Origin: Oerskovia paurometabola
GTDB lineage: Bacteria > Actinomycetota > Actinomycetes > Actinomycetales > Cellulomonadaceae
Length of the DNA stretch: 64,000 bases
NCBI RefSeq assembly: GCF_016907365.1
Contig: NZ_JAFBBV010000001.1
Location: 3,100,001-3,164,000 of the forward strand
Direction of reading: 5' to 3'
Shown here piece after piece: positions 12,242 to 61,020 of this stretch; position 1 is the stretch's first letter, and each line of letters opens with the position of its first letter. The position numbers and the translations under genes are program-made. The notes below the pieces were generated by a model. That model was not told the origin of the DNA. It searched no databases and worked only from the letters and a program-made list of their open reading frames with translations.

Positions 12242-13254
12242 AGCTCCTCCTCCTTGAACAGGGTGCGCATGTACACGACGGTGATCCCGAGCAGGATCAG
12301 GGTGAGCAGCACGGCGATCGCCGAGCCCATCCCGTACTTGCCCTGCGCGAAGGACTGGATGTACGACCACACGCCGAGGTTGAAGACCTCCTTGTTGCCG
12401 CCGTTGCCGCCGGGCATCAGGTAGATCTGCGTGAAGACCTTGAAGTCCCAGATGGTCGACAGGATCGTGACGACCGCGAAGACGGGGCGCAGGATCGGTG
12501 CGGTGATGGTCCAGAACCGGCGCCAGGGCGTGGCGCCGTCCATCATCGCGGCCTCGTGCAGCTCCTTGGGGATCGTCAGCAGGCCCGCGAGGACCGTGAT
12601 CGCCACGAAGGGGAACCCGTGGTGCACGACGTTGAGGGTCGCGATCGCGTAGAAGCTCAGGCGCTCGGTGAACCAGTTCGTGGTCGCCGGGTCGATGAGA
12701 CCGACCGAGTCGAGCACCGAGGAGACCAGGCCGTTGAGGGGGTCGAAGATCCAGATCCACACGTACGTGCCGGTGATGGCGGGTACCGCCCAGGCGACCA
12801 TGATGGCCGTCGAGCAGATGGTGCGCCAGAACGTGCCGAGGTTGTTGAGGAACAGCGCGACGGCCGTGCCCAGGACCACCGTGAGGACGACGCACGCGAC
12901 CGCGAAGCCGATCGTGTTGGGCAGGACGACGGTCCACAGGAACGAGTCGCCGAAGATCGCGGCGTAGTTGTCGAAACCGATGTAGTTCGACTCGCCCGAG
13001 GCGATCTGCCGCAGGCCGTAGTCCTGCAGCGAGATCATCACGACGCGTGCCAGAGGCCACAGGAGCAGGACGCCGAGGACGCCGAGCGCGGGGGCCAGGA
13101 GCAGCCACGGGCGCAGCGGCGACTTGTGGCCGAGCACACCGTGCATGCCACGTCGGCCGGCGCTGCGGCGCGGGCTGGAGGAAGGGGCCGGGGCCGGAGC
13201 CCGGCGCGTCAGCTGGTCGGCCGACGCGCCGGGAACCGAGTGCAGATCTGCCAT
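12238..13254 (-). CDS. ABC sugar importer permease (MalF-like)
   Basis: 338 residues from ATG 13254. A basic, Pro-rich N-terminal 45 residues precede six transmembrane helices starting at RPWLLLAPALGVLGVLLLW. The EAA motif is HEAAMMDGATPWRRFWTITAPILRP. CUT1 family, pairing with the permease encoded immediately downstream. It starts 8 bases after the stop of the solute-binding lipoprotein gene. The substrate is inferred from context only. Confidence 0.88.
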   Translation of the reverse strand: MADLHSVPGASADQLTRRAPAPAPSSSPRRSAGRRGMHGVLGHKSPLRPWLLLAPALGVLGVLLLWPLARVVMISLQDYGLRQIASGESNYIGFDNYAAIFGDSFLWTVVLPNTIGFAVACVVLTVVLGTAVALFLNNLGTFWRTICSTAIMVAWAVPAITGTYVWIWIFDPLNGLVSSVLDSVGLIDPATTNWFTERLSFYAIATLNVVHHGFPFVAITVLAGLLTIPKELHEAAMMDGATPWRRFWTITAPILRPVFAVVTILSTIWDFKVFTQIYLMPGGNGGNKEVFNLGVWSYIQSFAQGKYGMGSAIAVLLTLILLGITVVYMRTLFKEEEL

Positions 13255-13261
13255 GGGCTCG

Positions 13262-14569
13262 TCAGGACCCGAAGGTCTCGTTCATGTCGGCGGCCGCGGT
13301 GTCGGCGGCCTCCTGCACCGTGGCGCTGCCCGAGAGGATCGACTGCAGCATCGTCTCGACCGTCTTCTTGCCCTGGATCTGGCCGTAGAGCGGCGTCACC
13401 GGGACCGAGGCGCCGGCCTCGACCATCTGCTGGGCGAACGGCGCGACGAGCGGGTCGTTCTCCTCGATGACCTTCTCCAGGAGCGAGGTCTGGCCGGGGA
13501 AGTAGCCGGACTGGTTGCCCCACTCCTGCGCGAACTTGCCGGTCGTCATCATCTCGACGAACTCCCACGCGAGGTCCTGCTTCTCGCTGGCCGCGAAGAC
13601 GCCCAGGTGCGAACCGCCGAGGAACGAGTCCGACAGGCCGTCGGTCTCACCCGGGATGGGGAACGCGCCGATCTTGTCGGCCATGTCCGGGACGTCCGTG
13701 AGGATCTTGCCCGGCGTCCAGCTGCCGGAGATCATCATGCCGACGTTGCCCTGCTCGAAGTTCGACAGGAGGTCGGTCTCCTTCCAGGTCGTCGCGGCCG
13801 CGGTCGACAGACCCGCGTCGGTCGCGAGGCCCGTGTAGAACTCGAGGCCCTTGACGGAGTCTGCGGAGTTGATCTCGGACTTCCAGGTGTCGCCGTCCTT
13901 GACGGCCAGGTCGCCGCCCGCACCCCAGATGAAGGGCATGGCGCCGTACTGGGAGTCACCGGCGATCGGGAAGGGGATGAGGCCGGGGTTGGCGGCCTTG
14001 AGCGTCTCGGCCGCGGCCTGGAGCTCTGCCCACGTCGTCGGGACCGCGATGCCGGCCGCGTCGAAGAGGTCCTTGCGGTAGATGACCGAGCGCACGCCGG
14101 CGTACCAGGGCATGCCGTACTGCGCGCCGTCGAGCGTCGCGGACTCGACGAGACCGGGCACGAGGTCCTCCTCGAGGCCCGCGTCCTTGATCCTGTCGGT
14201 CAGGTCGGACAGCGCGCCGACGTCGGCGAACTCACCGGTCCAGGTGGTGCCGAGCTCGGCGACGTCCGGCGTGGTGTTGCCCGCGATGGAGGTCGTGAAC
14301 TTGTCGTGGGCGCTGGCCCAGGGCTGGAACTCGATCTGGAGGTCGGCGCCCGTCTCTTCCTTGAACGCGGTGGTGACCTCGTCGAAGAAGGCGTCCCCGT
14401 CGGGGTTGGTGCCTTCCATGATCCAGACGGTGAGGGTCTCGCCGGTGTGGTCGGCGGAGGCTGCGTCCCCCGTGGCCTCGCCGCCGCCGTTGTCCCCACC
14501 GCCACATGCGGTGAGGCCGAGCGCCAGGAGGAGGGTGCCCGTGACGGCCACCGTGCTGCGTCGCTGCAT
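13262..14569 (-). CDS. Extracellular sugar-binding lipoprotein of ABC importer
   Basis: 435 residues, ATG 14569 after GAAAGGAAG. A lipoprotein signal peptide ends in the lipobox LTAC (Cys22), followed by a Gly/Asp-rich linker. The mature part is a family 1 solute-binding protein (LTVWIMEGTNPDGDAFFDEVTTAFKEE at its start; EWGNQSGYFPG and VTPLYGQIQGKKTVETML near the end). It is tethered outside the membrane and delivers ligand to the two permeases downstream. First gene of the six-gene operon; its 240-base upstream region has candidate operators. The ligand is probably a MurNAc- or GlcNAc-containing saccharide, inferred from the catabolic genes. Confidence 0.9.
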   Translation of the reverse strand: MQRRSTVAVTGTLLLALGLTACGGGDNGGGEATGDAASADHTGETLTVWIMEGTNPDGDAFFDEVTTAFKEETGADLQIEFQPWASAHDKFTTSIAGNTTPDVAELGTTWTGEFADVGALSDLTDRIKDAGLEEDLVPGLVESATLDGAQYGMPWYAGVRSVIYRKDLFDAAGIAVPTTWAELQAAAETLKAANPGLIPFPIAGDSQYGAMPFIWGAGGDLAVKDGDTWKSEINSADSVKGLEFYTGLATDAGLSTAAATTWKETDLLSNFEQGNVGMMISGSWTPGKILTDVPDMADKIGAFPIPGETDGLSDSFLGGSHLGVFAASEKQDLAWEFVEMMTTGKFAQEWGNQSGYFPGQTSLLEKVIEENDPLVAPFAQQMVEAGASVPVTPLYGQIQGKKTVETMLQSILSGSATVQEAADTAAADMNETFGS

Positions 14570-30508: not shown

Positions 30509-32428
30509 TCAGTCTTCGCGGTCCCACGCGGGCGAGATGCCGCGTGCGTACTGGATGTTGTCGTTGCTCACGCCCGAGGCGACCATGGGCCACACCATCG
30601 CGTCGCGCGACACGTTGAAGTCGACGACGACGGGCCGGTCGTCGATCTCCATGGCGCGCTTGATCGCGGCGTCGACCTCGCTCTTGGACTCGACCCGGAT
30701 GCCCTCGCACCCGTACGCGTCGGCGAGCTTGACGAAGTCCGGCACGCGCTGCGTGCCGCGGCCCGTGTGCAGGTCCGTGTTGGAGTAGCGGGACTCGTAG
30801 AACAGGGTCTGCCACTGGCGGACCATGCCGAGCGAGGAGTTGTTGATCAGCGCGACCTTGATGGGGATCTCGTTGATCGTGCAGGTCGCGAGCTCCTGGT
30901 TGGTCATCTGGAAGCAGCCGTCGCCGTCGATCGCCCAGACGGTCTTGTCGGGCTGGCCGACCTTGGCGCCCATCGCGGCCGGGATCGAGTAGCCCATGGT
31001 GCCGAGGCCGCCCGAGTTGAGCCACGTCTTGGGGTGCTCGTAGCGGATGAACTGCGCGGCCCACATCTGGTGCTGGCCGACGCCCGCGACGTAGATCGAG
31101 TCGGGGCCGGAGATCTCGCCGAGGCGCTGGATGACGTGCTGCGGGGCGAGGTGACCGTCCTCGGGCTCGGAGTAGCCGAGGGGGTAGGTCTCGCGCCAGT
31201 CGTCGATCTGGCGCCACCAGGCGCCGAGGTCCGGCTGCCCCTTGGCGGCGTGCTCGCGCTCGAGCTCGGGCAGCAGGTCGGAGATGACCTCGCGCAGGTC
31301 GCCCACGATCGGGACGTCGACCTCGCGGTTCTTGCCGATCTCGGCGGGGTCGATGTCGGCGTGCACGATCGTGGCGTGCGGCGCGAAGCTCGAGAGCGTA
31401 CCCGTGACGCGGTCGTCGAAGCGGGCCCCGAGGGCCACCACGAGGTCGGCCTTCTGGAGCGCGGCGACCGCGGGGACCGTGCCGTGCATGCCGGGCATGC
31501 CGAGGTTCTGCGGGTGCGAGTCCGGCAGCGCACCGCGGGCCATGAGCGTGGTCACGGCGGGAGCGCCCGACAGGTCGACGAGCTTGCGCAGCTCGGCCGA
31601 GGCGTTCGCGCGGATCGCGCCGCCCCCCACGTACAGCACGGGGCGCTTGGCGGTCGCGAGCAGGCGGGCGGCCTCGCGGATCTGCTTGGAGTGCGGCTTG
31701 GTCACCGGGTGGTAGCCGGGCAGCTGCAGCTCCTGCGGCCACGAGAACGTGGTGCGTGCCTGCATCGCGGACTTGGCGATGTCGACGAGGACGGGCCCGG
31801 GGCGCCCGGTCTGGGCGATGTGGAAGGCCTCGGCGATGACGCGCGGGATCTCGTCGGGGTCGGTGACGAGGAAGTTGTGCTTGGTGATCGGCAGGGTGAT
31901 GCCGACGATGTCCGCCTCCTGGAAGGCGTCGGTCCCGATGAGGGACGCGCCGACCTGGCCCGTGATGGCCACGAGCGGGATCGAGTCCATGTTGGCGTCG
32001 GCGATGGGCGTGACGAGGTTCGTCGCGCCGGGGCCGGACGTCGCCATGGTCACGCCGACGCGACCGGTCGCGTGGGCGTAGCCCGAGGCCGCGTGGCCGC
32101 CACCCTGCTCGTGGCGCACGAGGATGTGGCGGAGCTTCTTGGAGTCCATGAGCGGGTCGTACGTCGGCAGGATCGCACCGCCGGGGATGCCGAAGACGAC
32201 GTCCACACCGGCTTCCTCGAGCGAGCGGACGATCGACTGCGCGCCCGTCACCTCCTCTGGCCCGACGACGAGGCTCGGGGTGCGCTCGCCGGTGACCGAG
32301 GCGCGTGCTCGGCTCTCGGGGCGGGCGGCGAGGCTCGCGGGGGACGGGGCTGGCTTCGGCGCCACGGCCTCGCCGGCGGGCGCGGGGGCGCTCGGCGTCG
32401 GCGGGGCCGGGTGGGGACCCTGGACCAT
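30509..32428 (-). CDS. ilvB: Acetolactate synthase large (catalytic) subunit
   Basis: 639 residues, ATG 32428 preceded by CAGGAGATACCG. ThDP- and FAD-dependent. An Ala/Pro-rich N-terminal 50 residues precede the family core: [26 protein letters not shown], the ThDP Glu in [19 protein letters not shown], and the metal-binding [15 protein letters not shown] with [13 protein letters not shown]. The first committed enzyme for Val/Leu and, with 2-oxobutyrate from CimA, for Ile. Expression is likely set by the leader attenuator at 32610-32760. Confidence 0.97.
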
Positions 32429-32919: not shown

Positions 32920-33384
32920 ATGACCACCACGATCGAGCGAATGACAGCCGACCTCACCACCGCCATGAAGGCCCGCGACGAGTTCGCCAAGAACACCCTG
33001 CGCCAGGTCATCGGCGCCGTCCGCACCGCGGAGAAGTCCGGCTCGACCGCGCGCGAGATGACCGACGCCGAGGTGCAGACCGTCCTGGCCGCCGAGGTCA
33101 AGAAGCGTCGCGAGAGCGCGCAGATCTACACCGACGCCGGCGCGACCGAGCGCGCCGACAACGAGACCCACGAGGCCGACTTCATCGAGAAGTACCTGCC
33201 CGCGAGCCTCACGCCCGCCGAGCTCGACGCGCTCGTCGCCGCCGCGGTCGTCTCGACCGGCGCCTCGTCCATGAAGGACATGGGCACGGTCATGAAGACG
33301 GCCACGGCCGCCGCGGCCGGGATCGGCCGCGTCGACGGCAAGGCGCTCTCGCAGGCCGTCCGTCAGGCGCTCGGCGCCCTCTGA
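32920..33384 (+). CDS. GatB/YqeY domain protein
   Basis: 154 residues, ATG 32920. A stand-alone YqeY-type protein: MKARDEFAKNTLRQVIGAVRTAEKSG, VLAAEVKKRRESAQIYTDAGATERADNE, EADFIEKYLPASLTPAELDALV and the tail GTVMKTATAAAAGIGRVDGKALSQAVRQAL, equivalent to the tRNA-binding tail of GatB. Interestingly gatB itself is in the same window. Family role is not established; amidotransferase-like tRNA contact is inferred. Confidence 0.92.
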   Translation: MTTTIERMTADLTTAMKARDEFAKNTLRQVIGAVRTAEKSGSTAREMTDAEVQTVLAAEVKKRRESAQIYTDAGATERADNETHEADFIEKYLPASLTPAELDALVAAAVVSTGASSMKDMGTVMKTATAAAAGIGRVDGKALSQAVRQALGAL

Positions 33385-33411
33385 CCCGGCACGGGGCGAC
33401 CGGCCCGCACG

Positions 33412-34365
33412 TCACCAGTCCTCGGCCCCCGCGAGCGACGTCGCGCGGGGCTCGACCCCCAGGACCTCGCGCAGCACCGTCAGGTCGTAGGTGCGCTCGG
33501 CCGCGAGGTGGCTGATCGCGTACCGGGTCAGGCGCGGCGGCTCGGGCCGCCGCGCCCAGCGCGCGAACGCCTCGGCGCACGCGGCGAGCACCCACGCGGG
33601 GCGGGCCGGGATCCCGGCGAGCGTGACGCCGTCGTGCCCCCTGCGGCGCAGGAGCTCGACGACGACCTCGCCCAGGACCACGGGCTCGGCGTCCGCGACG
33701 TTGACCACGAGGGGCCGACCGTGCGGCAGGTCGACCGTCGCGGCCGCGAGCGCCGCCTCGACGAGCGTGTCCACGTGCGTGAGGGACTGCAACGCCGACC
33801 CGTCCCCGACGAGCACGAGCCGCCTGCCCCGGATCGCGCCCTCGATGCGCGGCAGGAGCGTCGTGTCCCCCGGGCCGTACACGGCGTGGGGGCGCAGCAC
33901 GACGACGGGTCCGCGCCCGGGCGTGCGGGCGTCGGTGACGAGGACCCGCTCGGCGGCGGCCTTGGTCGCGCCGTAGGCGTTGAGGTACCGCTGGACGGGT
34001 GCCTCGGTCTCGAGTCCGCGGACCGTGGGCGAGTACGGGTCGTAGACGCTGCCCGAGGACACGTGCACGAACCGCGCCGCCGGGAACGTGTCCCGCACGG
34101 CGCGCGTGCCCTCGACGTTGGTCGCCCACGCGACGTCGTGGCGTGCCCAGTCGGAGACCGCGGCCCCCGCGTGCACGACGACGTCCAGGGCGGGCGGTTC
34201 GGCGAGCGGCCCGACGGCGAGGTCCCACGTCCGGTGCTCGGCGCCCGGGACGCGCGCGTCGCGGCGCGAGAAGGTCCACACCCGGTGCCCGTCGGCCACC
34301 GCGCGTCGGGCGACCGCTCCCCCGACGAACCCCGACGCCCCGGTGACCCCGATCCGTCGGCTCAT
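33412..34365 (-). CDS. OleD-like NAD(P)-dependent 2-alkyl-3-oxoalkanoate reductase
   Basis: 317 residues, ATG 34365, overlapping the OleC-like gene stop by 4 nt. An extended short-chain dehydrogenase: Rossmann motif GVTGASGFVGGAVARR at the N-terminus, catalytic YGATK (Tyr-x-x-x-Lys, about residues 154-158), LRPHAVYGPGDTTLLPRI and VGDGSALQSLTHVDTLVEA. These last two blocks, with the C-terminal RLTRYAISHLAAERTYDL, resemble OleD (3-beta-HSD family) rather than sugar epimerases. Known OleD reduces the beta-keto acid from OleA to a beta-hydroxy acid. The last gene of the oleA-GT-P450-oleC-oleD operon. Confidence 0.75.
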   Translation of the reverse strand: MSRRIGVTGASGFVGGAVARRAVADGHRVWTFSRRDARVPGAEHRTWDLAVGPLAEPPALDVVVHAGAAVSDWARHDVAWATNVEGTRAVRDTFPAARFVHVSSGSVYDPYSPTVRGLETEAPVQRYLNAYGATKAAAERVLVTDARTPGRGPVVVLRPHAVYGPGDTTLLPRIEGAIRGRRLVLVGDGSALQSLTHVDTLVEAALAAATVDLPHGRPLVVNVADAEPVVLGEVVVELLRRRGHDGVTLAGIPARPAWVLAACAEAFARWARRPEPPRLTRYAISHLAAERTYDLTVLREVLGVEPRATSLAGAEDW

Positions 34366-36191
34366 GCGGTCCTCGCCCCGGTCGTCGCGAGGTGGCGAGC
34401 GGCGGCGCGGGAGAGCGCCGCACGGTCGGGCTTGCGGCTGCGCCCCGCGAGCGGCAGACGGTCGGCGTGCAGCACGAGGTCCGGGAGCGCGCCGTGGTCC
34501 AGCACGTCCGGCAGCGCGGACCGGACGCCTGCGAGCAGCGGGTGGTCGTCGGTCAGGACCGGGTCGCTCGTTCCCGGTCCCTCCTGCCCGACGGCGTCGC
34601 TCGCCCCCGGCGCGAGGGTCCCGGCGCGTGCGGCGGCGTGGTCCGAGGTGACGACGAGCACGACCTTCTCGTCGCCGTCCTCCTGCAGGACGCCCACGAG
34701 AGCCGCCTCGCCGACGCCGGGCAGCGCGGCGAGCCGCGGCTCGAACAGACCGGGGTAGATGTTGACCGTCCCGCGGATGATCATGTCTCGCGTGCGGCCC
34801 ACGAGCACGATCCGACCCTGGTCGTCGAGATGCGCGAGGTCGCCCGTGCGGTGCTCGGTCACGGGTGTCCGTCCGCCGTCGAGGTGGGCGAGGTACCCCG
34901 TCATGAGGGACGGCCCGCGCAGGACGAGCTCGCCGACCGTGGGGCCGCCCGGCGTGGGAGCGTCGCCGGCGGGATCGAGAGAGTCGGCCGTCACGGCCGA
35001 CGCGTCGACCCAGGCCTCGACGCCCGGCAGCGGACGCCCGACCAGGTCGCCGTCCCCGGCGTGCGCGAGCTTGTCGCTCGCCTCGACCACCGCGACGGGC
35101 AGGATCTCGGTCATGCCGTAGACCCCGATCCACCGCGTGCCGGGCAGCAGCCGGCAGGCACGGTCGAGGATCGACCGGGTCACGGGCGCGCCTCCGACGA
35201 GCCCGACCCGCGGGCCCTGCGCGGGAGCCCGGCCGGACTCGACGGCGTCGAGCAGGAGCGTGAGGTCCGCCGGCACGAGGTAGGTCCCGGCCTGCCCGGC
35301 CGCGTGCCGGGCGAACGCCACGACGTCCTGCGCGGGGGTTCCCGGCGGGATGGACCAGGTCCCGCCCGCGAGCAGGGCCGGGATGCCCAGGAGCATCTGG
35401 TCGGTGTGCACGACGTCGCCCGGCGCGAGCTCGAAGGCCCCGCCCAGCAGCGCACAGCCCGCGCCGAGCGAGCCCGCGGAGTGGACGACGGCCTTCGGGT
35501 CCGACGTCGTGCCCGACGTGAAGACCACGAGCGCCTCGGCGCCGAGCGGCAGACCCGTCACGGGCGACGGGCCGACCGTCTGCCCAGCGCCCCCGTCGGC
35601 CCCCGAGGCGAGCGCGCGAGCCGACAGCGACCGACGAGGCACCCCGGGCAGCCACGGGCCGGACCGGACGTGCCGCAGCGGCAGGCTCGCGTAGTCGGGC
35701 AGCAGGAGGCCGCGCGAGCGGGCCAGGCGCCGCAGCGGACCGCGCGAGATCGCGTAGAGCAACGACTCGGTCATGGCCCAGCGGGGCCGCGCGGCGGCGA
35801 CGCGCGCGGCGAAGAGCTCAGGCGTCGAGCCCGGGTCGACGAACACGATCACGGCTCCGAGCCGCACGACCGCGAGCACCAGCACGATCCCCTCGGGGCG
35901 GGGACGCACCGAGAACAGCACGCGGTCCCCCGGTCGCACGCCCTCGTGGTGCAGTGCGTCGGCCGTGGCCTCGACGCGGCGGGACAGCTCGCGGTACGTG
36001 ACCTCCTCGCGGACCCGGTCGGGCGTCTCGCGGTCCGCCCGCGGCACGGTCGCCCGGACCGCGCTCTCCGTGCCCCGGCGTGCACCGCGCGGCGGGCGCG
36101 CCCACCAGCGCAGCGCCACCTCGTCGCCGCGCGCTCCCCGTGCGTGGCGGCCGATGGTCGCGAGCAGGTGCTCCGTCGTCGGGCCGGTCAT
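34362..36191 (-). CDS. OleC-like AMP-dependent ligase (beta-lactone synthetase)
   Basis: 609 residues, ATG 36191. An ANL-superfamily adenylating enzyme: ATP loop VVFTSGTTSDPKAVV (223-236), GVYGMTEILPVAV (357-368), RTGDLAHLDDQGRIVLVGRTRDMIIRGTVNIYP, and a C-terminal catalytic Lys in LAGRSRKPDRAALSR. The YGxTExLPV signature and GGAPVTRSILDRACRLLP match OleC, which closes beta-hydroxy acids into beta-lactones, better than acyl-CoA ligases. Unlike micrococcal OleBC it carries no fused alpha/beta hydrolase (OleB) domain, and none is encoded nearby. Coupled to P450 upstream and OleD downstream by 4-nt overlaps. Confidence 0.72.
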   Translation of the reverse strand: MTGPTTEHLLATIGRHARGARGDEVALRWWARPPRGARRGTESAVRATVPRADRETPDRVREEVTYRELSRRVEATADALHHEGVRPGDRVLFSVRPRPEGIVLVLAVVRLGAVIVFVDPGSTPELFAARVAAARPRWAMTESLLYAISRGPLRRLARSRGLLLPDYASLPLRHVRSGPWLPGVPRRSLSARALASGADGGAGQTVGPSPVTGLPLGAEALVVFTSGTTSDPKAVVHSAGSLGAGCALLGGAFELAPGDVVHTDQMLLGIPALLAGGTWSIPPGTPAQDVVAFARHAAGQAGTYLVPADLTLLLDAVESGRAPAQGPRVGLVGGAPVTRSILDRACRLLPGTRWIGVYGMTEILPVAVVEASDKLAHAGDGDLVGRPLPGVEAWVDASAVTADSLDPAGDAPTPGGPTVGELVLRGPSLMTGYLAHLDGGRTPVTEHRTGDLAHLDDQGRIVLVGRTRDMIIRGTVNIYPGLFEPRLAALPGVGEAALVGVLQEDGDEKVVLVVTSDHAAARAGTLAPGASDAVGQEGPGTSDPVLTDDHPLLAGVRSALPDVLDHGALPDLVLHADRLPLAGRSRKPDRAALSRAAARHLATTGARTA

Positions 36192-37468
36192 CGCGTGTCC
36201 CGCCCGGGACGCGTGGCCGTCCCGCGGCTGTGGTCGACCGCGACCCGCAGGCGCCGGTAGGACGGGATGAGGACGCCCCGCGCGACCTCCCGCCCCACGA
36301 CCCGCAACGTGCGCCCCGCGGCCACGACCGGGTGCAGCGCGTCGAGGACGGCACCCACCTGCGCCATCGCGAGCGGCATGCCCAGGCAGAAGTGCGGACC
36401 CGCGCCGAACCACAGGTTGCGCAGCGCCGGGTCGGCGTCGCGGGCAGGGTCGAACGGTCCGCCCGCCCGGCAGCACGTGACGGTCGCGACGACCACCCGC
36501 TCCCCCGCCCGCACCGGGACAGCCCCCACGCGGTGCGCCGAGCGCACGGACCGGAGCATCGCGGGAGTCGGGACCGTGACGCGCAGCGCCTCCTCGACCA
36601 CGCGCCCGCGCAGCGCGTCGTCGGGTCCGGCGAGCAGCAGACGATCAACCCATCCGGTGTCGACCGCGAGCGCGACCAGGCGCGGCGTGAACGACTGGAT
36701 GGTCTCGGTGCCCGTCATGACGAACGCCCCGACAGCGCCCAGCGCCTCGCGCTCGCTCAGGCCGAGGCCGCGCATGCGCCCCGGGACCGTCGTCGGGTCG
36801 CCGTCGCGGTACGCCGCACGCGCCGGCTCGCTCAAGGCCCCGAGCACCTCGCGGGCGTGACGCACCTGGGAGGGCGTGAGGCTGCGCCGGTGCAGTCTCA
36901 CGAGGCCCACGACGGACTGTGCCGCGACCATGGCGTCGCGCACCGCCGCGTCGGTGGGGGGCAGCCCCGTCATGCGGCAGATGACCGTGCCCGCGAGCGC
37001 CCCGACCTCGCTCACCAGGTCCACGGTCTCGCCCTCGAGCAGGCGGGGGGCCAGCGTCCCGAGCGAAGCCCCGGCCTCGGTCGCGGTGAGCTGCGCGACC
37101 GAGCGCGGGGTGAACAGCCCCGACAGCGCGCGCCGCAGCGTCGCGTGGTCCTCGCCCTCCATGTTGAGCAGGACCGACGGCCCCAGCACGGGCGTCCACA
37201 GGTCCGACGGCGCCCCCGGGCCGACCTTGGAGAAGTGCTCGGTGTCGAGCAGGACCTCGCGGGCCGTCGCGGCGTCGTTCACCACGACCCCGAGCCCTGG
37301 CACCCGCACGACCGGGCCGCGCCGCGCGAGCGCGCGGAACGCCGGGTAGACGAGCGGGTGGGCACCGCGCTGGACGCGCTCCTCCCAGCGGTGCGCGTCG
37401 CGCACGGCGTCGCCGCCCGGGGCCGGGTGCGGCCGGGCGCGCGGCGCTCGGGGCGGGGTGACCGTCAT
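36188..37468 (-). CDS. Cytochrome P450
   Basis: 426 residues, ATG 37468. Heme-thiolate loop FGAGPHFCLGMPLAMAQ with Cys361; I-helix oxygen motif FVMTGTETIQSF; ExxR in EEALRVTVPTPAMLRSVR (the second basic partner shifts, so the motif is EALR). Early substrate/heme segments LLDTEHFSKVGPG and GEDHATLRRALSGLFTPR are typical of bacterial class I P450s, which need separate ferredoxin partners; none is encoded nearby. Stop overlaps the OleC-like start; start overlaps the glycosyltransferase stop. Likely a tailoring hydroxylase of the lipid product. Confidence 0.88.
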   Translation of the reverse strand: MTVTPPRAPRARPHPAPGGDAVRDAHRWEERVQRGAHPLVYPAFRALARRGPVVRVPGLGVVVNDAATAREVLLDTEHFSKVGPGAPSDLWTPVLGPSVLLNMEGEDHATLRRALSGLFTPRSVAQLTATEAGASLGTLAPRLLEGETVDLVSEVGALAGTVICRMTGLPPTDAAVRDAMVAAQSVVGLVRLHRRSLTPSQVRHAREVLGALSEPARAAYRDGDPTTVPGRMRGLGLSEREALGAVGAFVMTGTETIQSFTPRLVALAVDTGWVDRLLLAGPDDALRGRVVEEALRVTVPTPAMLRSVRSAHRVGAVPVRAGERVVVATVTCCRAGGPFDPARDADPALRNLWFGAGPHFCLGMPLAMAQVGAVLDALHPVVAAGRTLRVVGREVARGVLIPSYRRLRVAVDHSRGTATRPGRDTR

Positions 37469-38286
37469 CGGATGTCCACGACCTCGGGCCTGTAGCGGTG
37501 GTCGGCGTACCAGCCCAGGGTCCGCACGAGCCCCCAGGCGTGCGCGCGCCGCGTCGAGGCCCGCACCACGACCTCGGGGTGCGCCCCGTATGCCGACGTC
37601 AGGCGACGTACGGCGTTGACCAGGGCGCGGTCCTCGTGCAGGTCCTCGATCGCGGTGCGGGGGAAGCCGCCCGCACGCTCGTACAGGTCCGCGGTGATCG
37701 CCATGTTGCACCCGGGGGCCATGACGTACGGGCCCAGGTAGGACGGGTCCTGGTTGCCGGGGCGGAACCTCCCGAACGTGCTCGCGATGCTCACGGCCCC
37801 CGACAGGATCGCCTGGCGCACACGGGACACCGGCAGGTCGTCGGTGCGCGCGACGATGCGCCCGGCCACGAGGTCGTGCCCGACGGCGAACGCCTCCTTC
37901 ACGCGGACCGTCCAGTCCGGCGGGGGCACGCAGTCCGCGTCGGTGCGCGCGAGGTGGGTCGCGCCCGCGGCGATCGCCGCGCGCATCCCCGTGTCCGCCG
38001 CGGCGCCCGTGCCCTTCTGGTCCTCGGTCACGAGCCGCCAGCGCGGCTCGTCCCAGTCCGCGACGGTCGCCCGCACGAGGTCCGGGGTGCCGTCGGTCGA
38101 GCCGTTGTCCACCACGACCAGGTCGAAGTCGCGGTCCTCCTGGACCCGCAGCGCACGCAGCGTCGCGAGGATGCCGTGCTCGCGCGCCTCGTTCAGGGCC
38201 GGGACGACGACCGCGAGACGGACCGGGGGCGGCGGCGTCCGCTGCCCGGGGGCCGTACCCGGCCCTGCGGGGCCCGCCGGGGTCAC
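37465..38286 (-). CDS. Family 2 glycosyltransferase
   Basis: 273 residues using GTG 38286, which overlaps the OleA-like stop (GTGA). GT-A fold signals: LAVVVPALNEAREHGILATLRAL, DLVVVDNGSTDGTPDLV, ARTDADCVPPPDW (the DxD region) and a later EDLHEDRALVNAV acceptor-site motif. No transmembrane segment is evident, so it is probably cytosolic or peripheral. Within the ole-like operon it may add a sugar to the P450-oxidised lipid. The donor and acceptor cannot be read. Confidence 0.8.
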   Translation of the reverse strand: MTPAGPAGPGTAPGQRTPPPPVRLAVVVPALNEAREHGILATLRALRVQEDRDFDLVVVDNGSTDGTPDLVRATVADWDEPRWRLVTEDQKGTGAAADTGMRAAIAAGATHLARTDADCVPPPDWTVRVKEAFAVGHDLVAGRIVARTDDLPVSRVRQAILSGAVSIASTFGRFRPGNQDPSYLGPYVMAPGCNMAITADLYERAGGFPRTAIEDLHEDRALVNAVRRLTSAYGAHPEVVVRASTRRAHAWGLVRTLGWYADHRYRPEVVDIR

Positions 38287-39443
38287 AGCCGCACCGCCAT
38301 GGCACCGATGCTGATGCCGCCTGCCAGGCCGACGAGCAGCACCACGTCCCCCGGCCCCACGCGACCGCTCTGCCACGCGGTCGCGAGCTGGAGCGGCAGC
38401 GTCGCCGACGCGACGTTCCCGTGCTCGGCGACCGTCACGATCGTGCGCCCCTCGGGCAGGCCCAGGGCCTCGTGGACGTCCGCCAGGTACGCGACCGCGA
38501 CCTGGTGCACCGCGACCAGGGCCACGTCGTCCCACGTCAGTCCCGCGCGGTCGAGCGCCTCCAGGATCACGCCCGGCCCCAGCGCCAGGAACGCGTCGCG
38601 CAGCCGCGACCCGTCGATCTCGAAGTACGTGCGGTCGAGGTCCCGGGGGAAGGCCGTCCCCCCGCCCGGGAGCATGCCGACGTCCCAGTGCGTGGACTCG
38701 GCGCCGAACGCGCTCGCGAGGATTCCCGCCGGGGGCGCGTCGTCGCTCGCGCCGTCGCCGCTCGTGCCGACCACCGGCTGGGGGGCGCGTCGCACCAGGA
38801 CCGCCGCTCCGGCGTCGGACATGGTGTAGCCCGGCGCGGACAGCAGGTACGTCGCCCGGTCCGGGACGTCCCACCGGACCGCGCGCGACGGCGCCTCGCC
38901 GCACGCGATGAGGACCGTCCCGTACCGGCCCGTGGCGACGAGCGCCTCGGCGACCTCGATCGCGTTGAGGACCGAGTTGCACGCGTTCTTGACGTCCATG
39001 ACCGGGGCGCGCACGCCCAGCCTGGCCGCGACGATGTGGCTCGTCGCCGGCTCGACCATGTCCTGGCTGGCCGAGGCGAAGATCAGCAGGTCGACGTCCC
39101 GGGCGTCGAGCCCCTGGGCGGCGAGGAGCTTGGCCGCGGCGGCGGCCGCGAGGTCCGAGGCGTTCCAGTCGTCGGGCAGGACGTGGACCTGCTGGACCCC
39201 GGTCAGGCGCGAGACCATGGGCAGGCGCGGCACGGCACCGGGAGCGCTCGTGCGGGCCAGGTCCCGCTCGGCGTCGGCGACCCGCACGGTGCGCTCGGGC
39301 AGGTGGACGCCCACCCCCGCGATCACGGCGGCAGGAGCCTGGCCCCGGACCGGGGCGAGCGTCGCGCGGGTCCCCGAAGGGTGCGCTGGAGGGCGGGCGA
39401 TGATCGGCACCCGCGACAGCGTAGCCACGAACTCGAGCCCCAC
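38283..39443 (-). CDS. OleA-like thiolase / ketoacyl synthase III
   Basis: 386 residues from GTG 39443; GTG 39410 is an alternative and neither has a clear ribosome site. Thiolase fold with Cys155 (DVKNACNSVLN), His313 (VAVHQVA) and Asn343 (AEHGNVASATLP). Glu131 in DMVEPATSHIVAARLGV aligns with the OleA glutamate that, in the family, comes from the partner subunit and separates OleA from FabH. OleA condenses two acyl-CoAs head to head into a 2-alkyl-3-keto acid. First gene of the operon; the divergent P450 starts 129 bases away, so a shared promoter region is likely. Confidence 0.75.
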   Translation of the reverse strand: MGLEFVATLSRVPIIARPPAHPSGTRATLAPVRGQAPAAVIAGVGVHLPERTVRVADAERDLARTSAPGAVPRLPMVSRLTGVQQVHVLPDDWNASDLAAAAAAKLLAAQGLDARDVDLLIFASASQDMVEPATSHIVAARLGVRAPVMDVKNACNSVLNAIEVAEALVATGRYGTVLIACGEAPSRAVRWDVPDRATYLLSAPGYTMSDAGAAVLVRRAPQPVVGTSGDGASDDAPPAGILASAFGAESTHWDVGMLPGGGTAFPRDLDRTYFEIDGSRLRDAFLALGPGVILEALDRAGLTWDDVALVAVHQVAVAYLADVHEALGLPEGRTIVTVAEHGNVASATLPLQLATAWQSGRVGPGDVVLLVGLAGGISIGAMAVRL

Positions 39444-39571
39444 CGAGGTTGTCCACGGGTGAGAGTCGGTGCCCGTCCGTCCTCACGCCGTCGTCCGCCC
39501 TCGTCCGTCCTCGTCCACAGGACGACCCCGGACGACCACGACCGGCCGCCGGATGCGCCAGACTGTCCGTC

Positions 39572-40867
39572 GTGCTCCCCACGACCCGCCACGAGGTGGA
39601 CCTCCTGCGCCGCGCCCGCCCCGGCATGGCCGCCGTGCTGCTCGGCGGCCATCTCTCGCGTCGCCTGCCCGGACCACCCCTGCGCAAGGTACCCGGCCTG
39701 GGCTGGGTCACGGCCGACCCCGTGGTCGCCCGCACCGTCCTGGGCGACCACCGGTCGTTCACGATCGTGGGCGAGGGCGGGGTCGGGCACCTGTGGGCGC
39801 AGATCCTGGGCGACTGGGTGCTCGACCTGTTCGACGGCCCGGGGCACCACGACCTGCGCTCGCGGTCGCGCGAGCTGTTCACCGAGGGCAGCTCGGCCGA
39901 GCTCGTCGAGGGCGCGTGGTCCGGTCCTCTCGCCACGGCCCGTGAGGCGCTGCGGTCGGGCGGGACGGTCGACGTCGCCCGCCTGGCGCGAGTGCTCGTG
40001 GGCCGCATGATGATCTCGCTCCTGGGCGTGCCGGGGCCGGACGTCAGCGACGACGGCGACCCGTCACGAGGGTCTCGGCGGGCGCCAGGTACCTGGCCCG
40101 CCGACGACGACGCCCTGGCGGTCTTCGAGACCGGCGAGCGTCTCGCGACGATCGCCCTGGGGAGCGCAGGGTCGACGCACCTGTCCCCCGCCCAGGTCGC
40201 CGCGGCCCGCGAGATCGTCGCCGAGCTCACCCGAGGCGTCCCGGCGGGCTGGCGCGACGCGCCCGCCGACACTCTGCTCGGCCGCTGCCGGGAGCTGGGG
40301 CTCGGCCTCGAGGAGACGACGGGGCTCGCGTGCCTCCTCATGGTCGCGGGCACGGAGACCTCGGCCTCCGCCATGGCACGGACGACCGCCCTGCTCGTCG
40401 ACACGGGCGAGCAGCACCGCCTGCTGGACCGGATGCGCGCGGACGCCGACCGGACGGCGGCGGGAGAGGTCCGCGCCCCGGGCGAGCCCGACGCCGTCGA
40501 GAACGCCGTACGCGAGGGGCTGCGTGTCACGAGCCCCGCCTCGGTCATCGGCCGGGGAGTCGCGGCCGACGTCGAGGTCGCAGGTCGCCACCTCGCCGAG
40601 GGCGAGCGCATCATGATGCTCGTGTGGAGCGCGAACATCGGTGCCGGACCGTTCCGTGCCGACCGTCCCTACGTCCGCGAGAGCCGTCAGCTCTGGTTCG
40701 GTGCGGGGCGTCACCTGTGCCTCGGGGCGGCGCTGGCCCGCGCGGAGATCAGCGCGCTCCTGCACACGCTCTGGGACGACGGCGCACCGCTGCGGGTCGT
40801 GTCGCGCAGCGCGCAGCGCGGGGTGCTGATCCCGGGCTACCGGACGCTGGTCGTGGCGCGCGCCTGA
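39572..40867 (+). CDS. Cytochrome P450 (second, divergent)
   Basis: 431 residues from GTG 39572; upstream in-frame codons back to 39449 lie in the shared promoter gap and are rejected. Heme loop FGAGRHLCLGAALARAEI with Cys383; I-helix MVAGTETSASAMART near residue 258; ENAVREGLRVTSPASVIGRGV carries ExxR. It is paralogous to the P450 at 36188 in layout (similar C-terminal GVLIPGYRTLVV versus GVLIPSYRRLRV), suggesting an old duplication within the cluster. Probably a second oxidation step on the same product. Confidence 0.87.
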   Translation: MLPTTRHEVDLLRRARPGMAAVLLGGHLSRRLPGPPLRKVPGLGWVTADPVVARTVLGDHRSFTIVGEGGVGHLWAQILGDWVLDLFDGPGHHDLRSRSRELFTEGSSAELVEGAWSGPLATAREALRSGGTVDVARLARVLVGRMMISLLGVPGPDVSDDGDPSRGSRRAPGTWPADDDALAVFETGERLATIALGSAGSTHLSPAQVAAAREIVAELTRGVPAGWRDAPADTLLGRCRELGLGLEETTGLACLLMVAGTETSASAMARTTALLVDTGEQHRLLDRMRADADRTAAGEVRAPGEPDAVENAVREGLRVTSPASVIGRGVAADVEVAGRHLAEGERIMMLVWSANIGAGPFRADRPYVRESRQLWFGAGRHLCLGAALARAEISALLHTLWDDGAPLRVVSRSAQRGVLIPGYRTLVVARA

Positions 40868-40955
40868 GGCCCCGCAGCGTGTCGGCACGAGCGCGGCCTC
40901 GGCGTCACCCTCGTCCGACAGGTTGCTCGGTCGTGAGACCTTGCCGGTCACGGGC

Positions 40956-41618
40956 TCAGTCGCGCGCCTGCCACGTGCAGATGCAGGCCTCGTTGCCCTC
41001 GACGTCCGCGAGCACCCAGAAGGCCGGTGCCCGGGAGTCGGAGACGAGGTGGCCGCCCGCCGCGATGGCCGCCGTGACACGGGCTTCGGCCTGGTCGTGC
41101 GGGACGGAGACGTCGAGGTGGATACGGTTGCGCTGGGGGCGCGGCGCATCCATCTGCTGGAACCAGACCGGCGGGCCGTACCCCGCAGGGTCCGTGAGGC
41201 CCAGGCCCTCGTCCTCGGGCGGCGCCTCGGCGTAGCCGAGCACCGCGCGCCAGAACGGCCGGACGGCGGGCCGGTCGAGGGCGTCGACCGCGATCTCGAC
41301 CTCGAGCAGCCCGTCGGTCTCGGCCGGGTGCTCGAGCTCCTTGGCCACGAGGGAGATCCGGCGGGCCAGGGTCACGTCGCGCCGGCTCAGCCCGCCCACG
41401 TCGTGCGAGGAGACCCGCACCGTGACGGTCGCGTAGCGCAGGTCGACGTCGGGGTGGTGGTTCATGCCCTCGGCCAGCTCGCCGATCGCGTCGACGAGCT
41501 CGACCCCGGCCGTGAACGAACCCGTGCGGAAGCGGGTCTGCGCGGTGCCCAGGACGACGCGCCAGTCCTCCACCCCGTCGCTGTCGTGGAACTGTCGGGC
41601 GGTGATCGCGTCGCTCAT
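40956..41618 (-). CDS. Fusion of pterin-carbinolamine dehydratase-like and glyoxalase-like domains
   Basis: 220 residues, ATG 41618 with GGAG upstream. Residues 1-100 resemble pterin-4a-carbinolamine dehydratase: WRVVLGTAQTRFRTGSF, the metal-free active-site MNHHPDVDLRYATVTV and LSRRDVTLARRIS. Residues 108-220 form a glyoxalase/VOC half: LLEVEIAVDALDRPAVRPFWRAVLGY, WFQQMDAP, NRIHLDVSVPHDQAEARV and AFWVLADVEGNEACICTW. No aromatic hydroxylase gene is nearby, so a role in tetrahydrobiopterin recycling is not evident. It may be a two-domain detoxification or pterin-related protein found in actinobacteria. Confidence 0.8.
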   Translation of the reverse strand: MSDAITARQFHDSDGVEDWRVVLGTAQTRFRTGSFTAGVELVDAIGELAEGMNHHPDVDLRYATVTVRVSSHDVGGLSRRDVTLARRISLVAKELEHPAETDGLLEVEIAVDALDRPAVRPFWRAVLGYAEAPPEDEGLGLTDPAGYGPPVWFQQMDAPRPQRNRIHLDVSVPHDQAEARVTAAIAAGGHLVSDSRAPAFWVLADVEGNEACICTWQARD

Positions 41619-41786: not shown

Positions 41787-43487
41787 CTACTCGAGGATCG
41801 CCCCGCGCGAGGCCGACTGGACGAGCTTGGCGTACTTGGCGAGCACTCCCCGCGTGAACGTCGGGGCGAGGGGCTCCCACCCGTCCTTGCGGGCCTCGAG
41901 CTCGGCCGGGTCGACCAGCAGGTCGAGCGTCTTGCGGGCGACGTCGAGGCGGATACGGTCGCCGTCGCGCACGAACGCGATGGGCCCGGCGTCGACGGCC
42001 TCGGGGGCCACGTGCCCCACGCACAGCCCGGTCGTCCCGCCCGAGAAGCGGCCGTCGGTCAGGAGCAGCACGGTCTTGCCGAGCCCCGCGCCCTTGATGG
42101 CTCCCGTGATCGCGAGCATCTCGCGCATGCCCGGCCCTCCCTTGGGCCCCTCGTACCGGATGACGACGACGTCGCCGTCCGTGATGGTCCCGTCCTCGAG
42201 GGCGTCGAGCGCCGCACGCTCGCGCTCGAACACGCGGGCCGTGCCCTCGAACACGTCGGAGTCGAAGCCGGCCGACTTGACCACGGCTCCCTCGGGCGCG
42301 AGCGAGCCACCGAGGATCGTGATGCCTCCCGTGCGGTGGATGGGGTTGTCGAGGGCCCGCAGGATCTTGCCGTCGGGGTCGGGGGGCGCCAGGTCCGCGA
42401 GGTTCTCACTCACCGTCCGTCCCGTGACCGTGAGCGCGTCGCCGTGGATCAGCCCCGCGTCGAGCAGCGCCTTCATCACCACGGGCACGCCGCCGATGCG
42501 GTCGACGTCGTTCATGACGTACCGGCCGAAGGGCTTGAGGTCACCCAGGTGCGGGACCTTCGCGGCGACCCGGTCGAAGTCGGCGAGGGTCAGCTCGACC
42601 TCGGCCTCGTGCGCGATCGCGAGCAGGTGGAGCACCGCGTTGGTCGAGCCACCGAACGCCATGACGACCGCGATCGCGTTCTCGAACGCCTTCTTGGTCA
42701 TGATGTCGCGCGCCGTGATGCCGCGGCGCAGCAGCTCGACGACGGCCTCGCCCGAGCGGTGCGCGAAGTTGTCGCGGCGGCGGTCCGCCGAGGGCGGGGC
42801 GGCTGAGCCGGGGAGCGACATGCCCATGGCCTCGGCGACCGACGCCATGGTGTTCGCGGTGTACATGCCCCCGCACGCGCCCTCGCCCGGGCAGATCGCG
42901 CGCTCGATGCGGTCGAGGTCCTCCCGGCTCATGAGCCCGCGCGAGCACGCACCGACGGCCTCGAACGCGTCGATGAGCGTGACGTCCTTCTCGGTGCCGT
43001 CGGAGAGCTTGACCCAGCCCGGCATGATCGAGCCCGCGTAGAGGAACACGCTCGCGAGGTCGAGGCGGGCGGCTGCCATGAGCATGCCCGGGAGCGACTT
43101 GTCGCACCCGGCGAGCAGCACCGACCCGTCGAGACGCTCGGCCTGCATGACGGTCTCGACCGAGTCCGCGATGACGTCGCGCGACACGAGCGAGAAGTGC
43201 ATGCCCTCGTGACCCATCGAGATGCCGTCGGACACCGAGATGGTGCCGAACTGCAGCGGGTACCCGCCGCCCGCGTGCACACCTTCCTTGGCTCCCTGCG
43301 CGAGCCGGTCGAGCGACAGGTTGCACGGCGTGATCTCGTTCCACGAGCTCGCGATGCCGATCTGGGGCTTGACCCAGTCCTCGTCTCCCATGCCGACGGC
43401 GCGGAGCATGCCGCGCGAGGCCGTGGCCTCGATGCCGTCGGTCACGGTGCGGGAACGGGGCTTGATGTCGATGTCGTCGCTGGCCAT
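41787..43487 (-). CDS. ilvD: Dihydroxy-acid dehydratase (first paralogue)
   Basis: 566 residues, ATG 43487. It dehydrates dihydroxy-isovalerate/methylvalerate. Cluster and substrate motifs: [71 protein letters not shown] and [21 protein letters not shown]. The 566-residue form with NEITPCN and GACGGMYT is the type usual in actinobacteria. A second, different IlvD is encoded upstream on the same strand, separated by a strong terminator. Confidence 0.93.
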
Positions 43488-43654
43488 ACCCGAGTATCTC
43501 CTCACGGGGGGGCGGCGGGCCACAAGGCACGGCAGTCATGGCGCCGTCGGGGGCCACGTGGGTCGTCACGGAGCAGTCCGAGGAACAGTGCTGACGCGCG
43601 TCCGGCCCTGACCGCGCGCCTCGGGTCCGCCCCGGCCCGCACCGCCCCGCGCAC

Positions 43655-43695
43655 GACGACGGGCCCGCACCCAGCAGGGGTGCGGGCCCGTCGTC
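43655..43695 (-). terminator. Terminator downstream of the second ilvD
   Basis: An 18-bp perfect GC stem (43655-43672 with 43678-43695) with a 5-nt loop, 15 bases past the ilvD stop at 43710 and before the next ilvD. Confidence 0.75.
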
Positions 43696-43709
43696 CTACC
43701 GGGGTCGGG

Positions 43710-45572
43710 TCAGCGCCGCTTGAGGAGCGACACGTCGCGCACGGCCCCGCGGTCCGCCGAGGTCGCCATCGCGGCGTAGGCCTGGAGCGCCGGGGACACG
43801 TAGCGGTCGCGGTCGACCGGCTGCCACGGGTTCTCGCGCGCCTCCATCTTGGCGCGGCGCTCGGCGAGGACTTCGTCGGCGACGTTGAGGCGGATGAGGC
43901 GCGTGTCGACGTCGATCTCGATCTCGTCGCCGTCCTCGACCAGGCCGATCACGCCGCCGGCCGCGGCCTCGGGAGACACGTGCCCCACCGAGATGCCGCT
44001 CGAACCACCGGAGAACCGCCCGTCGGTGATGAGCGCGGTCACCTTGCCGAGGCCGCGGCCCTTGATGAACGAGGTCGGGTAGAGCATCTCCTGCATCCCG
44101 GGTCCGCCTGCGGGACCCTCGTACCGCACGACGACGACGTGGCCGGGCTGGACCTGCTTGGTGAGGATCTTCTCGACGGCCTCGTCCTGCGACTCGCAGA
44201 CCAGCGCCGTGCCGACGAAGTGGAACACGTCGGGGTCGACGCCCGCGGTCTTGAAGACCGCGCCGTCCTCGGCGAGGTTGCCGCGCAGCACGGCCAGGCC
44301 ACCCTCGACCGTGTAGGCGTTGGCGAGGTCGCGGATGCACCCGTTCTCGGCGTCGGTGTCGAGGGTCTCCCACCGGTTCGACGTGGAGAACGCCTGCGTC
44401 GTGCGCACCCCGCCGGGGGCCGCGTGGAACAGCTCGACGGCCCGTTCGGTGGCCTGGCCACCACGGATGTCCCAGTCGTCGAGCCACGCGCGCAGGGTCG
44501 GGGTGTGCACCGAGGTCACGTCGTGGTCCAGGAGCCCGGCACGGTCGAGCTCGCCCAGCAGGGCCGGGATGCCGCCCGCGCGGTGGACGTCCTCCATGTG
44601 GAAGCTCGGGTGGTTGGGCGCGACCTTGGACAGGCACGGGACCTGGCGGCTGATGCGCTCGATGTCGGTCAGGTCGAAGTCGACCTCGCCCTCCTGGGCG
44701 GCGGCGAGGATGTGCAGGACCGTGTTGGTCGAGCCGCCCATGGCGACGTCGAGCGTCATGGCGTTGGCGAAAGCGGCCTTGGTCGCGATGCTGCGCGGCG
44801 CGGCCGAGTCGTCCTCGTCGTCGTAGTAGCGGCGCGCGAGGTCGACGATGGTGCGGCCGGCCTCGAGGAACAGCTCACGGCGTGCGGAGTGCGTCGCGAG
44901 CGTCGAGCCGTTGCCGGGCAGCGAGAGCCCCAGGGCCTCGGTCAGGCAGTTCATCGAGTTGGCGGTGAACATGCCCGAGCACGAGCCGCACGTCGGGCAG
45001 GCGTTCTCCTCGACCTGGGCGAGGGCCGCGTCGCTCACGTTGTCGTCGGCGGCGTAGTTGATCGCGTTGACGAGGTTGAGGGGGGTCTTGACGATGCCGT
45101 CGGCCACGACGGCCTTGCCTGCCTCCATGGGGCCGCCCGAGACGAAGATGACCGGGATGTTGAGGCGCAGCGCGGCGTTGAGCATGCCGGGCGTGATCTT
45201 GTCGCAGTTGGAGATGCACACGAGCGCGTCGGCGCAGTGCGCGTTGACCATGTACTCGACCGAGTCGGCGATGAGGTCGCGGCTGGGCAGCGAGTAGAGC
45301 ATGCCCGCGTGGCCCATCGCGATGCCGTCGTCGACCGCGATGGTGTTGAACTCCTTGGAGACGCCGCCGGCCTCGCGGATCGCCGACGCGACGAGGTCGC
45401 CCATGTCCTTGAGGTGGACGTGGCCGGGTACGAACTGCGTGTACGAGTTCGCGATCGCGATGATCGGCTTGCCGAAGTCCTCCGAGCCCATGCCGGTGGC
45501 GCGCCAGAGCGCGCGGGCACCGGACATGTTGCGGCCGTGGGTGGACGTCCGAGAGCGCAGGGGGCGACTCAT
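43710..45572 (-). CDS. ilvD: Dihydroxy-acid dehydratase (second paralogue, E. coli type)
   Basis: 620 residues, ATG 45572 after GAAGGAG. Motifs: [98 protein letters not shown] and [25 protein letters not shown]. The [11 protein letters not shown] and [10 protein letters not shown] forms and the longer length are those of the enterobacterial enzyme, distinct from the neighbour at 41787, with which it is only distantly similar. Possibly acquired or specialised for another sugar-acid substrate. Confidence 0.92.
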
Positions 45573-55284: not shown

Positions 55285-55402
55285 GTCCGGCGGCGACCTA
55301 CTCTCCCACCCCGTCTCCAGGGCAGTACCATCGGCGCTGAGAGGCTTAGCTTCCGGGTTCGGAATGGGACCGGGCGTTTCCCTCTCGCTATGACCGCCGT
55401 AA
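55285..55402 (-). rRNA. rrf: 5S ribosomal RNA
   Basis: On the minus strand the sequence has the conserved GGCGGTCATAGCG start, CCCATTCCGAACCCGGAAG loop A/B region and GGAGAGTAGGTCGCCGCC 3' helix; ends pair (GGCGG with CCGCC). Ends are approximate to a few bases. Third gene of the rrn operon. Confidence 0.92.
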
Positions 55403-55493
55403 CTCTATGGAGATGTTCGGGGCCCCCGGTTACGTGGGGGTGTGCCCGTATCTCGGGAACCGCACAGTGGACGCGTAGCAATAAGTTTGTGTG

Positions 55494-60518
<5,025 letters not shown>

Positions 60519-61020
60519 AATGTTTGCTATCAACCCCGAAGGATTAACAACCATACGAAGCGGACCCGAAGGTCCATAATCATGGCTACAAACCGAAAAC
60601 ATGACGTTTTCAATTCATACCAAATAGAAGTCTCAACACGAACACACAACACACACCAAACGATGCGCGCCACACGCCCATGCAGGACAATTGGCATTAA
60701 CTATCAAGCACACTGTTGAGTTCTCAAGCAACCGACACGCACCGACTCCAACCCACCAGGGGCCTTCACTCGGGGCAACTTCTCTAACCTACCAGACTCA
60801 TTCCCGCGTCTCAACTTCGCCGTTCCTGGTGAAGGAGAGCCGCCTGAGCCGACCGCCCCGCACGACTCACACGGCACACAGAGGTGTCCTGAGAAGATCT
60901 GAGGGGTGGCCACCCGGGGGATCCAGCCACTTCGCGGCGGCTCCGAAGAGCTTCGCAGTGGTGTCTGTTCCTCCCTGCCGGGCTGACTTCGAGAACATTA
61001 CGCGGCGCTCCGCCGCTGCG
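60519..61020 (-). other. rrn leader and promoter region
   Basis: The leader carries GAGAACTCAACAGTGTGC processing sequence and a GGACC-TTCG-GGTCC hairpin near 60565-60580. Upstream of the promoter (60786-60814) I see only GC-rich sequence up to the pxpBC stop at 61021. Confidence 0.6.
60786..60814 (-). promoter_or_regulatory. rrn promoter
   Basis: Minus strand: TTGAGA (60814-60809), 17-nt spacer, TAGGTT (60791-60786). Both elements are close to consensus and correctly spaced, about 260 bases before the 16S start. Confidence 0.7.

Follow-up and report, generated by a model that had tools for sequence, protein, structure and literature searches.

Organization of the locus

The window is a stretch of 64,000 nucleotides of Oerskovia paurometabola DNA, corresponding to positions 3100001-3164000 of the genome searched in this work (4.33 Mb, single contig). 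The genes considered here and their immediate neighbours are the following:

32920..33384, plus strand: YqeY-like protein, left flank, outside the pathway
33412..34365, minus strand: OleD-like NAD(P)-dependent reductase, 317 aa
34362..36191, minus strand: OleC-like adenylate-forming enzyme, 609 aa, with YGMTEILPV, a C-terminal R..K.DR motif and a CoA-ligase-like A8 hinge motif
36188..37468, minus strand: P450a, cytochrome P450, 426 aa, with the heme-ligand motif FGAGPHFCLG, seen by eye in the translation
37465..38286, minus strand: GT2 glycosyltransferase, 273 aa, GT-A fold, with a conserved DADC (residues 116-119) and E218/D219
38283..39443, minus strand: OleA-like thiolase, 386 aa, GTG start uncertain, catalytic Glu131, Cys155, His313 and Asn343
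39449..40867, plus strand: P450b, cytochrome P450, divergent from OleA, start possibly near 39572
40956..41618, minus strand: pterin-4a-carbinolamine dehydratase/glyoxalase-like protein, right flank, outside the pathway

An earlier, sequence-only reading had described five minus-strand genes (OleA-, GT2-, P450-, OleC- and OleD-like) with 4-nt overlaps, and direct reading of the sequence confirms an overlap of this length at every junction (GTGA once, ATGA three times). The same reading had a second P450 facing the operon; P450b is indeed the opposite-strand neighbour of OleA, but its orientation is divergent and "faces" is a loose term for it. The later start of P450b is suggested by the homologues from other genera, whose alignments begin at query residue 12-42. 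The enzyme classes of the six proteins were supplied by Pfam and NCBIfam, the Pfam matches being ACP_syn_III_C/thiolase, Glycos_transf_2, p450, AMP-binding, Epimerase and p450; none of the six reached a curated NCBIfam cut-off among the families listed. The structure model of GT2 (pLDDT 75.5) gave generic GT-A fold matches and no close solved relative. A promoter and terminator scan of 39200-39800 found nothing, and there was no Rfam match within 33000-41000.

On one side of the cassette lies what we take to be a tandem pair of ilvD-like dehydratase genes (41787-45572), and on the other flank presumably an acetolactate synthase gene (30509-32428); neighbours on the ilvD/ilvB side are found again at many Promicromonosporaceae loci. 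Elsewhere in the window there are genes fitting MurNAc/amino-sugar recycling at 7451-14551 (SIS domain, AnmK, GH3, two ABC permeases and a solute-binding protein), and a complete rRNA operon (5S, 23S, 16S) on the minus strand at 55285-60520, which accounts for the low-GC stretch of the window.

Conservation and distribution of the cassette

Scanning 84,980 species genomes with OleA returned 208 relatives, and the best 79 named loci of the 208 were analysed. All five genes occur in collinear order in 68 of these best 79 loci (Promicromonosporaceae 23, Pseudonocardiaceae 13, Microbacteriaceae 11, Micrococcaceae 9, Cellulomonadaceae 7, and five others), and the closest named OleA relative is found in Oerskovia rustica (96% identical). 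The 11 non-collinear loci comprise four on contigs of at most 13 kb, three without recognisable OleD (L061, L066, L075), one without OleC (L082) and three variants (L129, L130, L132). One record, labelled Sphaerisporangium cinnabarinum ATCC 31213 (L060), has a Cellulosimicrobium-like cassette with Cellulosimicrobium-like neighbours, and its label is doubtful.

In the GTDB family, window-type OleA is present in 49 out of 221 genomes at E<=1e-30, or in 48 when the distant match of G201 (35%, lying outside in the OleA tree) is set aside. P450b is present in 40 of the 221 genomes at E<=1e-50; all 40 are among the 48 with window-type OleA and none among the other 173, but since the genomes are related this is not a matter of 40 independent events. 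P450b is positioned divergently before OleA in 31 loci and convergently behind OleD in 12, so the linkage has survived rearrangement; it is not nearby in 31 of the 68 collinear loci. P450a adjoins OleA always, variant loci included. Two genomes (G006 and G171) have one in-frame stop each within the P450b match, which may be an alignment edge.

An empty site was found in a congener (G003, locus L228), where 33388..40870 of the window is missing in one piece. Window positions 33387 and 40871 lie three bases apart there, the junction falling just past the yqeY stop codon and just past the P450b stop codon, so the six genes are absent as a unit. The six genes are also missing from G001 (L229), where the window alignments stop at 33398 and restart at 40950, and 188 bases at the site do not align. 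Both genomes have extra DNA, not present in the window, between the yqeY and ilvB-side homologues (about 2 kb in G003 and about 4 kb in G001). With 68 out of 79 loci collinear and the one-piece absence in G003, the grouping of these genes is more than chance.

The OleC-like and OleD-like enzymes

For the OleD-like protein, the OleD model is the top match with 116 bits, the next unrelated model reaching 59 bits. In the OleD tree, 16 window-type, 4 variant and 12 canonical rows are separated from 3 other SDRs of the genome with 100/99 support, and the family tree thus upholds the earlier assignment to OleD.

The OleC-like enzyme is a less simple case. It scores 108 bits with NF045786 (cut-off 900) and 168 bits with PRK09274 (cut-off 478), the latter in a near-tie with a fatty-acid CoA ligase model (166 bits). 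The canonical OleC control L163 is under both cut-offs as well, but reaches 281 and 349 bits, respectively. Six window-type OleC proteins taken from other genera were scored as well, and none reached an OleC cut-off; five of the six matched some model at 1e-36 or better, the best or only model being PRK06187, which represents long-chain-fatty-acid-CoA ligases, in four and PRK09274 in one. The structure model (pLDDT 82.9) gives generic ANL matches, with amide synthetases and CoA ligases alike among the nearest folds.

In the tree, 16 window-type rows join 13 canonical rows with 98/93 support when set against 9 further adenylating enzymes from the genome; the stems are long, and the OleC-like enzymes form a clade of their own. 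The first tree had a misread or very long outgroup row; three odd outgroup rows (L187, L188 and L177) were then dropped, and this moved the join of the window-type clade from weak to 98/93. A second OleC-family match, on the minus strand of locus L103, was excluded. Twelve alignment columns are common to window-type and canonical OleC and not found in the other adenylating enzymes; they include the C-terminal Arg584 (R..K.DR) and YGMTExL, to which the YGMTEILPV of the OleC-like protein corresponds. The OleC assignment that had been made from this motif has evidence on both sides: motif and tree favour canonical OleC (against nine rows of one genome, on long stems), but the protein is below every OleC cut-off and four of its relatives favour PRK06187.

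We have to consider that the OleC-like enzyme might be an ordinary acyl-activating ligase. The acid would then be passed to CoA, a sugar or another nucleophile, and the product would be a corynomycolate-like acid in the form of an oxidised glycolipid or an ester, with no beta-lactone. The A8 hinge motif (KDMIxRG..NxYP) points in this direction as it is CoA-ligase-like, kept in the OleC-like enzymes and lost in all displayed canonical OleC rows; so do the preference of four out of the five matched proteins for PRK06187 and the fact that the unrelated TIGR02304 family fills the slot in six relatives (see below). The join to canonical OleC in the tree and the twelve columns common to canonical OleC alone speak against it. 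We regard an ordinary ligase as a serious possibility, albeit not the one we would expect.

Replacement of OleC by a TIGR02304 enzyme

Six loci (L129, L130, L132, L168, L221 and L224, the last with its extension L230) carry a window-type OleA with the catalytic Glu and an adjacent P450a, and neither GT2 nor OleC is found in the 14 to 27 kb stretches read there. All six contain an adenylating enzyme related to F390 synthetase, five above the TIGR02304 cut-off and the one in L132 by BLAST alone (46%). Searching the six variant genomes in full for window-type OleC with an Arthrobacter query gave at most 101 bits and 32% identity, as opposed to 393 and 558 bits in the controls G018 and G391. Glycosyltransferases of GT21-like and EryCIII-like type are present instead in two of the loci (L168 and L224), and two others (L129 and L221) have an ATP-grasp/acyltransferase-like protein. 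Because an unrelated TIGR02304 enzyme stands where OleC is absent in six genomes, adenylation of the acid made by OleA and OleD looks like a fixed step; it seems that the pathway needs an adenylating partner and that two unrelated families supply it.

TIGR02304 proteins are rare in the order (16 out of 396), and a ketosynthase III and an OleD-like SDR are near them in 15 of 16 loci. What these clusters share with the window is the trio of ketosynthase III, OleD-like SDR and adenylating enzyme. The adenylating enzyme, however, is unrelated, and in 12 of the 15 linked ketosynthases the OleA Glu is replaced by Ile or Met, the other three being window-type OleA. We tentatively speculate that OleA condensation, OleD reduction, P450a oxidation and acid adenylation are the invariant steps and that the adenylating enzyme is interchangeable between the OleC-like and TIGR02304 families. 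TIGR02304 might then represent a second, unrecognised activator (perhaps lactoniser) of 2-alkyl-3-hydroxy acids, a view that we hold to be rather doubtful at present. The open-access literature searched contained no paper that pairs an F390 synthetase with a ketosynthase.

In four further loci (L222, L223, L226 and L227), TIGR02304 is accompanied by an OleD-like SDR, by glycosyltransferases of GT21-like and EryCIII-like type and by a FabH-like ketosynthase in which Met occupies the Glu position; they constitute another, apparently uncharacterised, lipid cluster.

The OleA-like thiolase

The single-sequence comparisons of the OleA-like protein lean towards FabH: the FabH model PRK09352 scores 161 bits versus 132 for the OleA model PRK09258, the best PDB matches are FabH, and identity is just 22% to Xanthomonas campestris OleA (XcOleA) versus 28% to the FabH proteins of the same genome. 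The protein could thus be a FabH-like ketosynthase acting on malonyl-ACP or another extender, its resemblance to OleA being superficial. The tree argues otherwise, as 21 window-type and 12 canonical OleA rows fall on one side and the two FabH of the genome on the opposite side with 100/100 support (long branches were flagged); the window-type and canonical clades have support values of 98/96 and 99/96, respectively. In the alignment, the Glu that serves as Claisen base is present in 21 out of 21 window-type and 12 out of 12 canonical OleA sequences and in neither of the two FabH, and the fabH role in the genome is covered by two other genes. Tree placement and active-site Glu outweigh the single-sequence scores, so we rejected the FabH identity and consider it improbable.

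The sequence-only reading had arrived at OleA from Glu131, Cys155, His313 and Asn343, and had proposed the family tree as a check. Both hold: the protein groups with canonical OleA and not with FabH, and all four residues align with Glu117, Cys143, His285 and Asn315 of XcOleA, which we take to be the catalytic residues of that enzyme (the columns were located by motif).

In three genomes of 8-9 Mb (L164, L165, L166) an OleA that is 34-35% identical to that of the window adjoins an OleBC fusion, and by its sequence this OleA appears to bridge the two OleA types.

Absence of OleB and relation to olefin operons

The OleB domain of a canonical fusion (L163) was used to search the genome, with three oleBC-containing genomes as controls. 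The best score in the genome was 28 bits versus 319-327 bits in the controls; the claim that OleB is missing is thereby borne out genome-wide. Two cassette-bearing relatives gave 30 and 32 bits in the same search, and comparisons of OleB with OleB give at least 218 bits. When the genes predicted around the 79 loci were compared with thirteen OleB domains, no match at E<=1e-5 appeared; gene prediction was incomplete in some loci of lower GC content.

Canonical OleA occurs at E<=1e-40 in 124 of 297 genomes sampled from the order; a few of the rows counted are of the window type, for example G391 and one match of G018. Two genomes, G018 and G146, contain a canonical oleA-oleBC-oleD operon plus a window-type OleA cassette. 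Since both hold the full olefin operon too, the cassette is a separate pathway in these relatives and not their olefin route, and the idea that it is an olefin operon that lost OleB was rejected. P450s that decarboxylate fatty acids are known and P450a is always next to OleA, variant loci included, but neither the genome nor the gene predictions around the 79 loci yield an OleB-like protein, and two relatives have complete oleABCD besides the cassette. On this evidence, an olefin pathway in which an unrecognised hydrolase or a decarboxylating P450 fills the role of OleB is very improbable.

Comparison with known systems

It is instructive to compare the cassette with the canonical oleA-oleBC-oleD operon of Micrococcales. 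OleA, OleC and OleD of the two systems are sister clades and the active-site residues of OleA are identical; the window differs in that it has no OleB and does have GT2 and P450, and its OleC is 30% identical with a different hinge motif. As far as the olefin pathway oleABCD is concerned, there is no OleB, either separate or fused to OleC, and OleC is outside the NCBIfam olefin beta-lactone synthetase models.

The gene set had been thought to be undescribed. This turned out to be incorrect because the same five domains without oleB have been reported in Actinoplanes atraurantiacus (Smith et al., mBio 2020; PMC7064751), as an OleA-GT-OleC-P450-OleD cluster in a genome that is described there as having no oleB. 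Compared by the published description, the two clusters are alike in the five enzyme classes, the absence of oleB and the predicted product class: a hydroxylated, glycosylated beta-lactone was proposed as the Actinoplanes product, as a prediction only. The order is different, as OleC precedes the P450 in the cluster as described, while P450a precedes OleC in the window, which also has a linked second P450. Actinoplanes OleA, the only OleA of such a cluster known to have been assayed, was available as limited purified protein; it hydrolysed p-nitrophenyl hexanoate and did not condense C8-C16 acyl-CoA (PMC7064751). With respect to the type 3 group of OleACD without OleB, as outlined in the same account, the window has OleA with Glu and Cys-His-Asn, OleC and OleD in the operon (placed by trees only, below the NCBIfam cut-offs), and no oleB. 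By description, OleA, OleC and OleD homologues without OleB are also common to the nocardiolactone and lipstatin clusters (PMC7064751).

Plasmid pKVP2 of Streptomyces viridifaciens carries the five-gene set in the published Actinoplanes order, with identities to the window of 43% (OleA), 44% (GT2), 35% (OleC) and 38% (OleD), and 34% for the P450 over 126 residues only; the plasmid search returned six records, all below 60% identity. A 2020 JBC paper reportedly deals with adenylate-forming enzymes and nocardiolactone.

The present analysis adds to the published cluster a different gene order, a second P450 in linkage, the distribution of the cassette and the replacement by TIGR02304, the second-P450 link and the replacement being new as far as the open-access literature searched goes. 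Further additions are the separate OleC-like clade with its ligase-like hinge motif and the absence of the six genes from a congener of the Oerskovia group.

Proposed pathway and significance

We propose the following route. OleA would join two acyl-CoA chains by non-decarboxylative Claisen condensation, and OleD would reduce the resulting 2-alkyl-3-keto acid to a 2-alkyl-3-hydroxy acid, a skeleton found in corynomycolic acids too. P450a, aided by P450b in the lineage of the window, would oxidise the chains, and the cytosolic GT2 would attach a sugar. The OleC-like enzyme would adenylate the acid and most likely close a beta-lactone, which would persist because there is no OleB. Gene content, intact catalytic residues of OleA, family placement, linkage of the six genes and the absence of OleB are observations; each reaction, the sequence of steps, the substrates, the sugar and the lactone are what we infer.

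A pathway for a tailored 2-alkyl-3-hydroxy acid, whether lactonised or not, is in our view probable. That the six genes make a tailored head-to-head fused fatty acid and close it to a beta-lactone is a narrower proposal, on which we are evenly divided; a beta-lactone end product is plausible. For the lactone pathway speak the position of OleA, OleC and OleD beside the canonical enzymes, the conserved Glu, collinearity, the P450b linkage, the absence in G003, the absence of OleB and the Actinoplanes precedent. Against it speak the inactivity of Actinoplanes OleA in condensation, the scores of the OleC-like enzyme below the cut-offs, its ligase-like A8 motif, the gaps in the full-length loci L061, L066, L075 and L082, and the absence of P450b near 31 of 68 collinear loci.

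The exchange of OleC for TIGR02304 provides a direct handle on the OleC-like step, and on a family annotated merely as F390 synthetase-related, and the empty site in the congener is a natural null for comparative lipid analysis. If the proposal is true, the cassette would be a compact and widespread actinobacterial unit whose products form a so far undescribed family: fused fatty acids that are oxidised and glycosylated and might be beta-lactones, among which enzyme inhibitors are known.
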